Below the pieces are notes generated by a model, which was given only the letters and a program-made list of their open reading frames with translations, was not told the origin of the DNA and made no database searches. Positions 188 through 50,840 of a stretch of DNA of 64,000 bases are shown here, in pieces (the stretch's first letter is position 1; each line of letters starts with the position of its first letter). The DNA lies in the NCBI GenBank assembly GCA_903837495.1, contig CAILUT010000009.1, forward strand, positions 1-64,000. The letters run 5' to 3'. The translations under genes were made by a program, and so were the position numbers. Source of the stretch: an uncultured Flavobacteriales bacterium. GTDB lineage: Bacteria; Bacteroidota; Bacteroidia; CAIKAF01.

Positions 188-670
188 TGCTGCCTCCTTT
201 CCTCATGCCTTTCCAAATACCTTTTCAAAATCCCACTTCGACCATGGATGACCTGCCACTTCACCCAGTCTCATTCCCGAAACTCCGGCTTCCCAACTCA
301 ACAAAGTCGCCTTTATTGAACTAGAAAGCATTTCTGAGACCCCCTTGCGAGCCATTGAAATGCTTTTAAGCTTTTCTACGACGCACAAACATACTTCACG
401 ACCAAAAAAAACCCTAAGTGTTCTTCGCAGCCCCAACGTGTGGGGAAGCAAATAAAAAACGTTTCACCGATGAACCACGAAATTACGAACGGCATTTTTA
501 TTTGTCAAGTGAAAAGCGGTTTTTTATTTATTTCTACATCTGGTTTTGGTGTTCTGAACGCTTTTTCGCCTTGTTTTTAGGCGATGATGGGTAAAGAAGG
601 GACATCATTGAGCATGGAAGTGAGAAGGAAATCCGGTTTGTTTTCTTTACCGGGCTTGTTTTTTAAACGC
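188..670. other. Intergenic stretch with no supported gene
   Basis: The ORF track offers only short overlapping frames here (80 and 82 aa on opposite strands). They have no recognisable domain and low-complexity composition, and they run into repeat sequence. I see no tRNA-like or riboswitch-like structure. A weak CGCC/GGCG hairpin lies near 567-583 but has no T-tract. I cannot assign a function. Confidence 0.5.
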
Positions 671-818
671 GGCCTTGCGCCCCCGACAGAGGCGGCAGTA
701 TGCACGCAGGCGCCCGGTTGTACCCGGTTGAGGAGGCGACTTTAGGAGCCACCGCAAACCGCAGGTACAACCAGGGCGGCGCGGGCATGCTAGAGCCGAT
801 GGCGGGAAATGGCGCCCC
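671..818 (+). repeat. Structured intergenic element R1 (subfamily II)
   Basis: This is a GC-rich hairpin element. The tip is loop GACTTTAGGA (738-747) closed by GGC/GCC. Below it a perfect 9-bp stem GGTTGTACC/GGTACAACC and an outer GGCGCC/GGCGC-type pairing are visible. The loop is identical to that of R6 at 50.7 kb, although the stems are unrelated in sequence. It ends close to GGCGGGAAATGGCGCC, similar to the end of R2. It lies about 90 bp upstream of the promoter of the haem-uptake operon. Confidence 0.8.
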
Positions 819-904
819 AATACACCTTCACAAACCCCGCATTTTACCTACAATTAGGTATAAAATTACCCCTGACGTGGGATTGCCGAACCTGTTTGCA
901 GCCC

Positions 905-17460: not shown

Positions 17461-17610
17461 CGGGGCTGCGCCCCCGATTGAACCGGCATTGGCTGAACGG
17501 GAAAGCCAGCCGGCCTTTGCCGAGGAGGCGACCAGGGGGAGCCACCGCAGGCAAACAGGCCGGCAGCTTGACCGAAAGCCAATACAGGTGAAAGCGGGAA
17601 TTGGCGCCCA
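17461..17610 (+). repeat. Structured intergenic element R2 (subfamily II)
   Basis: This GC-rich hairpin element starts 24 bp after the DUF2723 stop. The tip loop is GACCAGGGGGA (17530-17540) between GGC and GCC. Long-range pairs include ATTGGCT/AGCCAAT and GCCGGCC/GGCCGGC. It begins with CCCCCGATTGAACCGG and ends in GGTGAAAGCGGGAATTGG, so it links the arm motifs of R3-R6 (GATTGAACC, GGTGAAAGC) to those of R1. Confidence 0.8.
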
Positions 17611-17645
17611 AATTCCTTGCTATTTGCAAAACCGAAAATTAGGTT

Positions 17646-22950: not shown

Positions 22951-22962
22951 TTCCCTTTTTTT

Positions 22963-23113
22963 GGGGCGGGATACCGGGCTTTCTCCGGTAGTCCGCGGTG
23001 CTCAGTGGCAGGTCCAGCGGCCTTGCGGTGGCTCCTGAAGTCGCCTCCGCGGCACGCGGAACCTGGCACTTCGCCCCTTGCGGGCTACCGGTTCAATCCC
23101 GCCCGCGGGCGGC
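22963..23113 (-). repeat. Structured intergenic element R3 (subfamily I)
   Basis: The element starts 12 bp after the infB stop and reads GGGCGGG...CCGGGCTTTC...GGTAGTCCGCGGTGCT on the plus strand. The tip is TCCTGAAGTC (23033-23042) between GGC and GCC, the complement of the GACTTyAGGA loop. Stems GGTAGTCC/GGGCTACC and AGTGGCAGGT/ACCTGGCACT pair with one mismatch. The 3' arm holds GGCTACCGGTTCAATCCC. It sits between convergent genes. Confidence 0.85.
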
Positions 23114-40080: not shown

Positions 40081-41268
40081 ATGAAGTATTGCTTGATCCG
40101 CGAACGAAAATCCCCACCCGATTTCCGATGTCCTTTAAATCCTGAGCAGGCAATGGCTTTCGCTAAAAGCAACTCCAACGTCTCAATTTGGGCCGAATCT
40201 TCGGCCCACCGCTGCTTTTCCGATGCCGAGTTTTTGCAACAAGGCATAGCCTTGGCCGAAGGAAAGCCCGCCCAGGTCTATTTGGGCATTAAAGAGGTCC
40301 CACCCTCTGCACTGATTCCCAATTCTACCTATTTCTTTTTTTCGCACACCATCAAACGGCAACCGCAAAATCGGGAACTTCTGCAAGCTGTGCTGCAAAA
40401 CAACATTCGCCTTATCGATTACGAATGCCTGCGCGATCCCCAAGGGCAACGCCTCATCGGCTTTGGGTTTTATGCCGGGGTGGTGGGGGCCTACAATACC
40501 CTGCGCACGTTTTCCTTAAAAACCCAACAGCAGCCACTGCCGCATTCTGCCCAGCTGCAAAGTCGAACGCACATGGATCAAGTTCTATCCGATTGGTCGG
40601 TTCCAGACCTGCGCATTGTACTTACCGGGCAAGGGAAGGTGGCTCAGGGCGCGCTGTCTATTTTAAAGCAATTGAATTTTATCCAGCTTGAACCCCATCA
40701 GGATTTCCCAGAAACGGGACGCTGGGTTAAAATCATCGATTACCATCAATACAATGTTCGCATTCAAGACGGGGGCTTCGATGCGGCCGAGTTTTATGCC
40801 CAGCCACAGCTGTACCAAGCCCGTTTTTTGCCTTTTTTATCCAACGCTCAAATTCTTCTCACAGGGCATTTCTGGTCTGCCGATTCTCCCCGCTTTTTAA
40901 GCCCAGAACAGCTCGGCAGCACTCAGATTTTGGTTGTGGGCGACATCAGCTGCGATGTCAACGGCCCTTTGCCCTGCACGCTGCGGCCCTCTACTTTACA
41001 GGAACCCGCCTATGGTTGGGACAAAATCAGCTTTCAGGAAACCGATTTGATTAAGCCTTCCGCCATCGCGGTTATGGCGGTCGATAACCTGCCTGCGGCA
41101 TTGCCGGCCGATGCTTCCAATCATTTTGGTACAGCACTGCTCCCCATTCTTCAAGCCTTTGAAAAACAGCCCAATGCCCCCGTTTTTGAGCATGCTACCA
41201 TTGCCCAAAATGGAGCACTTATGCCCAAATACGCGTATTTACAGGCCTGGGTTGATGGGTTGGAGTAG
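40081..41268 (+). CDS. Saccharopine dehydrogenase-like NAD(P)-binding enzyme
   Basis: This 395-aa protein resembles the alanine dehydrogenase/saccharopine dehydrogenase (lysine-forming) family. The N-terminal 'IRERKSPPDFRCPLNPEQA' matches the substrate-domain start (the K in ERK and the R after PPD are typical). The 'KEVP' and 'FFFSHTIK' motifs and a Rossmann loop 'IVLTGQGKVAQGALSIL' follow. It probably catalyses NAD(P)-dependent oxidation or reduction of an amino-acid adduct; no lysine pathway genes are adjacent, so the exact reaction is open. Element R4 begins at its stop codon. Confidence 0.78.
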   Translation: MKYCLIRERKSPPDFRCPLNPEQAMAFAKSNSNVSIWAESSAHRCFSDAEFLQQGIALAEGKPAQVYLGIKEVPPSALIPNSTYFFFSHTIKRQPQNRELLQAVLQNNIRLIDYECLRDPQGQRLIGFGFYAGVVGAYNTLRTFSLKTQQQPLPHSAQLQSRTHMDQVLSDWSVPDLRIVLTGQGKVAQGALSILKQLNFIQLEPHQDFPETGRWVKIIDYHQYNVRIQDGGFDAAEFYAQPQLYQARFLPFLSNAQILLTGHFWSADSPRFLSPEQLGSTQILVVGDISCDVNGPLPCTLRPSTLQEPAYGWDKISFQETDLIKPSAIAVMAVDNLPAALPADASNHFGTALLPILQAFEKQPNAPVFEHATIAQNGALMPKYAYLQAWVDGLE

Positions 41269-41409
41269 GGCGGCTGCGGGCTTTCGCAGGTAGTCCTCGG
41301 TGCTCGGCTCCGCCGGCAGCCGGCTGCGGGTAGCTCCCAAGGTCGCTCCCACAGCCCCGCGCCGGCAGGGCCTTGCCCCTGTGGGCTACCTTGCTCTATC
41401 CCTGCCGCT
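41268..41409 (-). repeat. Structured intergenic element R4 (subfamily I)
   Basis: The element begins at the last base of the preceding stop codon. The tip loop is TCCCAAGGTC (41335-41344) between AGC and GCT, the complement of GACCTTGGGA found in R5. Stems GCAGGTAGTCC/GGGCTACC and GGCTCCGCCGGC/GCCGGCAGGGCC (11 of 12 paired with one G-T) are visible. The start GGGCGGCTGCGGGCTTTC matches R6 read on its minus strand. Confidence 0.85.
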
Positions 41410-41589
41410 CTCATTCCTTACCCCTTTGCATTAAAAAAAGAACCCAGTCAAAGCCGCTGTGTTTATAAATTCACACCCAAGGCTTTGATGTTGAGTGCAA
41501 AAGAGCAGTAAAAAGGGTGAAACGCTTTTTGTTTGAAGGTATTTCTTTTTACAAACTAAACATTTTGAAGGTCTTGGGGTTATACCCAC
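41410..41589. promoter_or_regulatory. Leader region of LON gene with nested hairpin
   Basis: A 41-base hairpin (41448-41488) has outer arms TCAAAGCC/GGCTTTGA and inner arms GTGT/ACAC around an AT-rich loop. It lies ~100 bp upstream of ATG 41590. No TAnnTTTG box is found, so the promoter of the LON-M61-MazG operon is not clear. The hairpin may be an operator, a leader structure or a terminator of the upstream gene. Confidence 0.4.
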
Positions 41590-44760: not shown

Positions 44761-44878
44761 GGTAGTTCAAAATAGGTTTTATTTAAAACGACCTACAAAC
44801 GGAGCCATCTATTTGTTGGTTGTTGGCGGTTTTGGCCGAAACTGAAATAAGATTTCAGGGGCATTTTTTATTGTGATG

Positions 44879-45026
44879 GCCTGCGGTAGGGATTGAACCG
44901 AGTAGCCCGTAAAGGCCTGGGGCCTGCGTGCGCGCGACAGGCAGGGCGACCTTGGGAGCCCCTGCCTGGCCGCTGCACGCAAGCCCCAGGACTGCGGACT
45001 ACCGGTGAAAGCCCGGCAACCGCCCC
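44879..45026 (+). repeat. Structured intergenic element R5 (subfamily I)
   Basis: Tip loop GACCTTGGGA (44948-44957) is closed by a long clamp CAGGCAGG/CCTGCCTG. Further stems are GCCTGGGGCCTGCGTGC with GCACGCAAGCCCCAGGAC (nearly perfect) and GTAGCCCG/CGGACTAC. Its outer arms carry GGGATTGAACCG and CCGGTGAAAGCCCGG. It ends 10 bp from the stop of the minus-strand von Willebrand A gene, and transcripts of that gene would read it in the same sense as infB reads R3. Confidence 0.85.
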
Positions 45027-45035
45027 CAAAAACCC

Positions 45036-46982
45036 CTATCTTTTTTGCAAGATGATGCGTTGAATTATTCTGAAATCGTCTTTGAACAGAGCCAAATAGT
45101 ACATTCCAGAGGGCAAGTGGCTGATGTCGGGGCGGAAATCGCTGCCGCGTTCGATGCTCCAGGTTTGCACCACGCGGCCGCCCAGGTCGAGCAGATGCAT
45201 GGTGCTGCCTTGAAGGTTGCCGCCCTCTAAGCGCAATTGAAATGGGCCGGTGCTGGGATTTGGGAATACGGTAAGGCGGATGCCGTCGGGGTTGCTGTTG
45301 TTGGGCTGGTCTTGCAGTTGCTCGAACCATTTTTCAACGTAGCGAACTTGATTGCTGTCGATGCTGGGGTTTTCAGGTTTGCTGCAATCGGGCATCCATG
45401 TAAATCGGTAAAGGATGTCGGCCAACAGGGCATTCAGCTTTTGCACGTTGAGCGAAGCGGCGACGGGTGCGCGGTGGCTGCCGCCCACTTTGCTGTCGTC
45501 GGTTAAGCTGGTATAGGTTCCGTTGGTGGCCAGGGCGATGGACCGCATTAAGAATTCGGCGCTGGCGTCCATGCCGCTGCAAGCCAAGGTAACGATGCGA
45601 ATGCCTCTGGCGGCAGCTTCGGCTGTAAGGGTTTGCATGCGGATTTTAACCAATTCATCTTGGTGGGGAGGGGCGTCCAAGGCAATGAACAGGATGCGGG
45701 TGCGTGCTTCGGGGTTCCAGCTCAGTCTGCGAAGGGCTACTTCAAGGGCCTCGTCAACGGCTTCGGGAAAATCGCCTCCGCCGCCGGCGGCTTGTGCACT
45801 GAGGAAAGAACGGGCGGCCGAGCCTTTTTCAAAATCTTGAAAGCGCGTTAGGTACTCATCGCCATGGTCGCGGTACACCACGGCAGCGGTTCTGAATTCT
45901 AGGGTTGAGTTGCGGGCAATGGCTTTTTGAATCACGTCGTCGAGTTCCGATTTTAGGTAGTTTAGTTCATCGCCCATGGAACCGGTGGCGTCCACCACAA
46001 ATGCGACATCTACTTTGTTTGAGTTTCGGCAGGGTAGATTTAAGGTAAATTCCAATTGCCTTGTTCTCCAACCTTTGGCTGGGGCGTCGAAGTTCTGGCG
46101 GGTTTGGGTTCCGGGTTTTCCGGCCACAAGGGTCCATTTTCCTTTTACCTGAGCTGAATCGCGGAACAAATGGGCCCACAATTCGGCGTGGCCTTGGTTG
46201 TCGGTTAGGGCGCTCCACATTAAATTTCCGGAAGGGCCAATCAAGTCAACGGGAACGTTGGCAAGAGGCTGGCCTTCGCTGCCTTGCACATACACCGCAG
46301 TGCGGAAACGGGGGAAAAGGCTCCAGGCCTTGCCGCCCGACAAAAGGGTAGGCAGGGCGCTTTTTTCCCAAAAGCTCCATTGCAAAAAATCATTGACTTC
46401 GCCGGCAGTCAGCGTTCCTGCCCCCGGGGCAACGGGGCTTGGACTGTCAGTGGCAACCGAACCACTGCGCGATTCCATCCGTTCAGATTCTGCCGCCATG
46501 GGTATGGCATCGTAGGCAACCGAGCGGCTGGCTTCCCGTTTGTATTTGGTTGAAGGCTTGCCTTCGGTTGTTGAGCTGCTTAATTTTCGGGAATCAAATT
46601 CGTGGTTGGAATGTGTGGGCAAGTCGGGAGGGGCTTGGGCAAAAAAGCCGGGTTTTAAATCGAGGGCATGCAATTGGGGGTTGCTGTCCACCGTTAGGAA
46701 CCAGCGTCCGAAGGACTGCATGCCGGTGCTTTGGATGTCGAGGCGGTAAAGGCCTGGTCTTAAATCAATCCAAAGGGTGTCTCCGGGCAAGCGTTCTCCG
46801 CCAAAAACAAGGCTGTCGTTGTGGTATAAGGTGAAAATATGGGCTTGGTCGGAAAACCGTGGACTTGCTTTTGTGCTGAAAACGATGCCTGAAAGGGGCA
46901 GGCGTTCTTTTGGAGTTTTAATTCCTGCAAGGGCCCAAAGGGTTGCAAGGAATGCGGTGGTAAGAACAAGGTAATTTCTCAT
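45036..46982 (-). CDS. Secreted von Willebrand A-domain protein with T9SS sorting domain
   Basis: This 648-aa protein has a signal peptide. An N-terminal beta domain is followed by a Ser/Pro/Lys-rich linker (~130-200) and an immunoglobulin-like segment (~225-300). A vWA domain (~325-520) has the metal-binding DATGSMGDE (MIDAS) and 'TRILFIALDAPPH'. The last ~80 residues (from LTVFPNPSTGPFQLRLEGG) form a type A T9SS domain. It probably acts at the cell surface in adhesion or binding, with a divalent metal in the MIDAS site. The gene stands alone; R5 lies just past its stop. Confidence 0.87.
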   Translation of the reverse strand: MRNYLVLTTAFLATLWALAGIKTPKERLPLSGIVFSTKASPRFSDQAHIFTLYHNDSLVFGGERLPGDTLWIDLRPGLYRLDIQSTGMQSFGRWFLTVDSNPQLHALDLKPGFFAQAPPDLPTHSNHEFDSRKLSSSTTEGKPSTKYKREASRSVAYDAIPMAAESERMESRSGSVATDSPSPVAPGAGTLTAGEVNDFLQWSFWEKSALPTLLSGGKAWSLFPRFRTAVYVQGSEGQPLANVPVDLIGPSGNLMWSALTDNQGHAELWAHLFRDSAQVKGKWTLVAGKPGTQTRQNFDAPAKGWRTRQLEFTLNLPCRNSNKVDVAFVVDATGSMGDELNYLKSELDDVIQKAIARNSTLEFRTAAVVYRDHGDEYLTRFQDFEKGSAARSFLSAQAAGGGGDFPEAVDEALEVALRRLSWNPEARTRILFIALDAPPHQDELVKIRMQTLTAEAAARGIRIVTLACSGMDASAEFLMRSIALATNGTYTSLTDDSKVGGSHRAPVAASLNVQKLNALLADILYRFTWMPDCSKPENPSIDSNQVRYVEKWFEQLQDQPNNSNPDGIRLTVFPNPSTGPFQLRLEGGNLQGSTMHLLDLGGRVVQTWSIERGSDFRPDISHLPSGMYYLALFKDDFRIIQRIILQKR

Positions 46983-50645: not shown

Positions 50646-50794
50646 GCCGCCTGCGGCAGGGATTGAACCGGATAGCCGGAAAGGTTGCCGGCTTGCTGCC
50701 CGCGTGGCGCGGAGGCGACTTTAGGAGCCACCGCAAGCCCGCTGGGCAGCTGGCCGGCAGCCGCGGACTATCGGTGAAAGCCCGCAGCCGCCCC
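50646..50794 (+). repeat. Structured intergenic element R6 (subfamily I)
   Basis: Tip loop GACTTTAGGA (50717-50726) on GCGGAGGC/GCCACCGC. The main stem is GGTTGCCGGC-TTGCTGCCC with GGGCAGC-TGGCCGGCAGCC, and the base pairs CCGGATAGCC with GGACTATCGG. Arms carry GGGATTGAACCGG and CGGTGAAAGCCCGCAGCC. It lies about 45 bp beyond the terminator of the leftward tRNA-Met gene and ~220 bp upstream of glnN. It is the best copy for defining the consensus. Confidence 0.87.
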
Positions 50795-50840
50795 TAAAAA
50801 AAACATTTTACCTGAGCCGGATTGCCTAGGGCCGTAAATA

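Follow-up and report, generated by a model that had tools for sequence, protein, structure and literature searches.

A candidate family of interspersed intergenic hairpins with a fixed head in Bacteroidota genomes

Most of what is known of long intergenic palindromes comes from Proteobacteria. REP and BIME elements with their RAYT transposases, whose palindromes are GTAG- or CGTC-tagged (PMC3733652), share with the element described here a high copy number and an intergenic position 3' of genes, and their GTAG class is recognised as folded single-stranded DNA. ERIC sequences, long palindromes and MITEs (PMC10969869) resemble it in length, in being intergenic, in occurring in tens to hundreds of copies and in sometimes lying at gene 3' ends. 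Integron attC sites (PMC2727003) are, like our element, long imperfect hairpins with extrahelical or internal-loop bases and a variable stem, placed after a stop codon, and an integron-integrase-like recombinase or its relics lie near some copies of the element. Palindromic structured-RNA candidates of Bacteroidetes from the HMP2 set (PMC8040213; 80–132 bp, one near phage-integrase domains) can be likened to it by description only. A search of the literature, sequence words included, for an already named repeat of this type found nothing usable, and our best reading of the sequence comparisons is that we are dealing with a new family of interspersed intergenic hairpins, one that matches no described family in the searched libraries and papers.

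Architecture and copies of the hairpin

The window, i.e. the whole stretch of DNA analysed, comprises 64,000 nt (contig C9, 1–64000) of a freshwater Bacteroidota genome, G000, of 2.51 Mb in 67 contigs. An earlier note on this DNA had drawn attention to a conserved tip at 50711–50736, which proves to be the head of an interspersed, imperfectly palindromic intergenic hairpin of ∼150 nt. The hairpin at this site (R1), its parts and the other copies in the window are as follows.

50646..50800, + strand: full hairpin, R1, 168.5 bits, between a glutamine synthetase type III gene and tRNA-Met
50658..50675, + strand: conserved basal internal loop region, 5' strand, AGGGATTGAACCGGATAG
50711..50736, + strand: conserved tip module GGAGGC-GACTTTAGGA-GCCACCGCAA, window letters GGAGGCGACTTTAGGAGCCACCGCAA
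50717..50726, + strand: the '10-base loop', a GA/GA tandem mismatch around C(TTTA)G
50767..50785, + strand: conserved basal internal loop region, 3' strand, GACTATCGGTGAAAGCCCG
50792..50800, + strand: A-run, the typical 3' end of the element
44876..45032, + strand: copy, 136.7 bits, loop GACCTTGGGA at 44948–44957; 3' end adjoins the stop codon of an opposing gene (end at 45036)
41261..41415, − strand: copy, 111.8 bits, loop GACCTTGGGA at 41335–41344, clamp AGC/GCT; 3' end at the stop codon (41268) of an opposing gene
22957..23113, − strand: copy, 139.2 bits, loop GACTTCAGGA at 23033–23042; 3' end just past the stop of the IF-2 gene (22950)
670..824, + strand: divergent copy of the 'GCGCCCCCGA' subfamily, 59.7 bits, loop GACTTTAGGA at 738–747
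17461..17616, + strand: divergent copy of the 'GCGCCCCCGA' subfamily, 52.5 bits, loop GACCAGGGGGA at 17530–17540

A covariance model of the hairpin, built from 33 copies, recovers the six window copies with E = 1e-35 to 6e-10 and finds at least 150 copies in the host genome, where BLAST gave 40 scored copies of 234 candidates; nhmmer applied to 858 kb of a sister genome found 87, or ∼255 per genome by extrapolation. We estimate ∼250 copies per genome (∼2.5 Mb). Several contigs of G000 break inside an element (C35:1–136, C44:1–137, C61:4661–4797, C39:12556–12692 and C20:13633–13769), and four of these contig-end copies share one score, so near-identical copies exist and are undercounted by the draft assembly.

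The six loops quoted in the earlier note are all present, and the one at 41335 is closed by AGC/GCT, as claimed. Is the loop invariant, as the note also held? Unrelated loops were sought among 125 host-genome copies aligned to the model, and all 124 copies with a complete tip fit GAC-N4/N5-GGA, with a C always at loop position 3 and a clamp of GGC/GCC in 119 and AGC/GCT in 5; in other words, invariance holds for the GAC and GGA ends, but not for the middle four bases, which read TTTA in 61 copies, CTTG in 33, GTTA in 11, TTCA in 6, CTTA in 4 and otherwise in one or two each. Bases 1 and 4 of this mini-loop are T-A in 67 copies, C-G in 34 and G-A in 14. Given this base set and this pairing, the '10-base loop' is most naturally read as a tandem G.A/A.G step followed by a C-G pair and then a mini-loop of two residues, with bases 1 and 4 paired on either side of them. 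Loops of type II, which have this pairing, have been described for DNA TTTA and CCTG repeats (PMC5661647), where a G-A loop pair is also cited for d(ATCCTA-GTTA-TAGGAT); by analogy, we infer that the TTTA/CTTG/GTTA set would fit DNA mini-loops.

Beyond the host, the number of detectable copies in genomes of the same genus ranges from 67 to at least 150, and other genomes gave 32 (G014), 39 (G055) and at least 110 weaker matches (G056). The tip also occurs in Flavobacteriales LaPlata_bin-1703, Bacteroidetes K_DeepCast, Sphingobacteriaceae nzgw119 and Sediminibacterium MAG03, on unrelated stems with similar base motifs. Many copies in G001/G004 and in G056 carry other tips, and the head is thus common, not universal, in the wider family. 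For example, copies in G001/G004 (L095, L097, L107, L108 and L109) have the GACYTTRGGA head replaced by a perfect mini-hairpin such as GGCCCCCGATNTTTCGGGGGACC on the same base, and G056, of another family, has a shorter (∼100 nt), very abundant relative (L065, L071, L075, L078 and L089) that keeps the basal motifs GGGATAGAGGCAAGTAGCCCACAGGA / GACGAGGACTACAGCCGATAGCCCG and leaves stem and tip free. A survey of 396 genomes of the phylum with an exact tip pattern picked out only two of them, which says little about the true spread, as the pattern (four variable bases, R, G, one base, AGCC) demanded a longer loop than most copies have. Phages and plasmids searched by blastn, and viral contigs searched with the tip pattern, yielded no element.

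Conservation of shape and place

RNAalifold folds the 33 copies into one long stem of 49 pairs, with compensatory changes at 28. In 81 further copies, 39 pairs show two-sided changes, 96.8% of cells pair as compared with 75.9% after shuffling, and two-sided changes fill 707 cells as compared with 183 in shuffled alignments, none of 500 shuffles reaching 707; when the alignment is slid as a control, pairing falls to 32–53%. These stem alignments were fitted to the structure and are biased towards it to that extent. The stems thus vary and yet stay paired, which upholds the earlier description of a fixed loop on a freely exchanged stem. Nearly all copies keep conserved interruptions of the pairing, both at the base (GGGATTGAA.. 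opposite ..GTGAAAGCCC) and inside the stem, so that simple correction to a perfect palindrome is not all that is happening to the element.

The copies are also retained in place. All six window sites hold the element in the same orientation in G005, a sister species, and in G002, and the 50646 site, between the glutamine synthetase III gene and tRNA-Met, holds it even in G001 and G004. Where host sites could be aligned to part of the G005 genome, the element is kept at 34 of 35, always in the same orientation. Orthologous elements are typically ∼90% identical (median 91.6% over aligned positions), as compared with 73% for the 65 nt flanking either side and 46% for random pairs. For 22 of the 34 elements no G005 copy matches better than the ortholog, and about 6 of the 34 look replaced by another copy, which indicates that occasional gene conversion between copies contributes to the covariation. 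In the 25 vertically inherited ortholog pairs, the substitution rate is 4.5% at paired as compared with 11.7% at unpaired sites, and 23 double changes are seen where 3.4 are expected, 20 of them from one Watson–Crick pair to another: this is compensation in place. Gain or loss does occur, as two copies of G002 have no counterpart in G000; the empty G000 sites are too diverged from G002 for the element boundary to be placed.

How do the copies lie with respect to genes? Among 109 copies with both neighbours called (by crude ORF calling), 78 have an antisense gene on the 3' side (p = 8e-6), whose stop codon lies a median of 21 nt from the A-run end of the element; the gene on the 5' side shows no orientation preference (58:51), and 11 copies lie between divergent genes. 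Examination of the 5' flanks of the copies gave no strong motif.

Folded DNA, RNA or a dead repeat?

Since the copies change in sequence but not in shape or position, it is probable from the comparisons that something in the cell recognises the folded form. The reading that we favour, tentatively and at a little under even confidence, is that the element would be a folded-DNA recognition element, a single-strand hairpin or a cruciform, retained at gene ends. The element may have spread long ago. A putative structure-specific DNA-binding protein, possibly a recombinase or transposase to which it owed that spread, would read two fixed modules: the head, consisting of GGC, the tandem G.A step and the C(YTTR)G mini-loop, and the basal internal loops GGGATTGAA../..GTGAAAGCCC; the arms between them would need only to pair. 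Copies would no longer be moving fast, selection would hold them in place, and those retained would perhaps serve as 3' boundary elements of genes.

The alternative with the next claim on our attention, which we regard as possible but doubtful, is that the element acts as RNA, either as a 3' UTR hairpin of the abutting gene (− strand) or as a small RNA of the + strand, and that it shields the ends of mRNAs or is bound at its tip by an RNA-binding protein. Copies do lie within a few tens of bases past stop codons, folding is strong (z = −5.1 on the + strand and −4.0 on the − strand), and the internal loops conserved on the + strand are G.A-rich. RNA parameters slightly favour the − strand in folding energy, and DNA parameters make the strands equal. 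The pair statistics speak to the choice more directly. Both alignments together, with one ambiguous pair left out, contain 5729 Watson–Crick cells, 58 G-T/T-G, 22 A-C/C-A and 131 others. The excess of GT over AC (58:22, p = 7e-5) suggests that the + strand is the one that matters and allows some RNA-level tolerance on it. However, G.T makes up only 1.0% of Watson–Crick plus GT pairs, short of the appreciable G.U share expected of a structured RNA (the control, a small sample of tRNA acceptor stems in the same genomes, gave 4 of 49), and this low share speaks for a constraint on DNA structure and points to folded DNA more than RNA. The RNA alternative is further weakened by a GA-bearing strand that is mostly antisense to the adjacent gene, by the 11 of 109 copies between divergent genes and by the absence of common RNA tetraloops such as UUCG from the loop set. 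It also lacks an Rfam family: covariance models run on the window returned only tRNA-Met at gathering score, with element matches far below it, and only tRNA and chance miRNA matches at permissive settings. Nor is the hairpin an intrinsic terminator, a candidate that we rejected as no T-run follows it on either strand, the + strand 3' end being an A-run and the 5' flank giving no T-run on the − strand. Thus, of the earlier suggestion that this looks like a protein- or RNA-binding site, the look of a recognition site has gained ground, with a fixed head on exchanged stems in 124 copies and in other Bacteroidota orders, and for the putative binding the pair statistics favour DNA over RNA.

Could the copies instead be dead? 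A MITE- or ERIC-like palindrome (PMC10969869) that transposed long ago, was then shaped by gene conversion and palindrome correction and has no present function would account for the intergenic, palindromic, high-copy habit, the signs of ectopic conversion, the GC-CG pair flips without GU intermediates and the near-identical copies at some contig ends. We judge this explanation unlikely, since correction would erase the internal loops and bulges that remain imperfect in nearly all copies, and since 34 of 35 sites are kept while their flanks diverge and the positions of the fixed head stay constant. A target site duplication is also wanting: matches between flanks are no longer than in a swapped-flank control, although old insertions could have lost it.

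Recombinase neighbours

Given equally little weight is the possibility that the hairpins are attC-like folded-DNA recombination sites of an integron-integrase-like tyrosine recombinase, with solo copies as leftovers of past activity. A recombinase of this kind (Phage_integrase, PF00589) is full-length in G005:C29 (L388:1550–3120), where an element precedes it by 76 nt and a palindrome, AAAACTTCGCC..GGGGAAGTTTT and ATAAATGAGTT, follows closely. Its final ∼70 codons survive as many relics scattered through the genus (L378, L377, L383, L381, L376, L391, L409, L405, L404 and L408); several carry the palindrome, and the hairpin usually lies on their N-side. In G000, G002 and G005, at 6 of 8 loci (C29 included, and the G000:C22/G005:C14 pair taken once), an element lies 25–530 nt away on the N-side in the same orientation, an association that was noticed after the fact. 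Element, relic and palindrome form a repeated unit in G001/G004, and this unit and the recombinase-bearing one of G005:C29 both begin with the element. The relics of G001/G004 have GAGTT at their end, after which come RRRY-like bases and different genes.

Two further observations would suit recombination sites. Placement after stop codons resembles that of cassette attC sites, and inverted orientation holds for 40 of 49 neighbouring pairs less than 10 kb apart, both in G000 and in G002, counts that are largely orthologous and not independent; below 3 kb no direct pair occurs (21/21 inverted in G000, with eight weaker copies counted, and 11/11 in G002), the closest pairs being head to head. Such an excess is expected if recombination deletes direct pairs, and deletion between direct repeats would explain it.

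Against this stand attC core boxes (RYYYAAC...GTTRRRY) at the arms in 0 of 112 copies, the lack of cassette arrays, and 2 of 8 relic sites without a nearby element. The recombinase itself falls below the integron-integrase cut-offs (NF040815, 202.5 bits as compared with 220; TIGR02249, 196.7 as compared with 265), no protein in nine genomes exceeds that for TIGR02249, and G000 and G003 are rich in copies without a full-length gene, G000 having only relics plus Xer-like genes. Adjacency can be chance, as an element 93 nt from a Xer-like gene in G002/G003 illustrates, and a single unit with an element in it by accident may be the ancestor of all the relics. With the core boxes absent and the adjacency possibly due to chance, we rank attC-like function as a minority hypothesis. 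A slightly less probable variant still is that of an arrayless integron, in which folded-DNA sites dispersed genome-wide, with a fixed mini-loop head read by the integron-integrase-like recombinase, would have been domesticated as gene-end elements. The recombinase neighbourhood is a lead, not yet an explanation.

The idea in the earlier note that the AGGA/GGGA part of the loop might be a Shine–Dalgarno or anti-anti-SD site acting on translation can be set aside with near certainty: codirectional genes on the 3' side start 24–622 nt (median 82) past the element end, with the tip ∼75 nt further inside the hairpin, no classified copy lies in front of a start codon at Shine–Dalgarno distance, and these bases are best explained as half of the tandem G.A step plus the R of the Y..R loop pair.

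Comparison with known repeat systems

The hairpins form one family across several Bacteroidota orders, at up to ∼250 copies per 2.5 Mb, with two fixed modules on exchangeable stems, and these modules, together with retention of position across species and compensatory change in place, make its function directly testable. If its reader is a recombinase, integron-like systems would be linked to dispersed repeats; if an RNA- or nucleoid-binding protein, Bacteroidota would gain a BIME-type gene-end control element.

The mobiliser of REP sequences does not fit. Y1 transposases (PF01797) have no match in G000, G005 or G014, which makes a REP/RAYT system unlikely, and no IS200/RAYT-type transposase was found in the host. 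We rejected RAYT as mobiliser on the missing host gene and because the RAYT-like genes in sister genomes come with palindromes of another kind, e.g. GAGACGCAC..GTGCGTCTC. These genes (L120:1990–2830, L121:2060–2180 and L125:1460–1910) have short palindromes of their own, AGAGACGCACAATCGTGCGTCTCT and AGGGGCAGACC..GTCTGCCCCT, beside them and even inside the frame, and one such gene or palindrome locus lies within a broken copy of the hairpin.

In form, the element differs from REP sequences in its length, 150 nt as compared with 20–40 nt, and in an alignment without an unpaired GTAG or CGTC terminal tag. From ERIC and MITE palindromes it differs in sequence and phylum, in a multi-module structure with a fixed head, and in strong in-place compensation and site retention with no target duplication found. 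Unlike integron attC sites, it has no R and L core boxes and lies outside cassette arrays, its copies being dispersed singly and mostly inverted with respect to their nearest neighbour.
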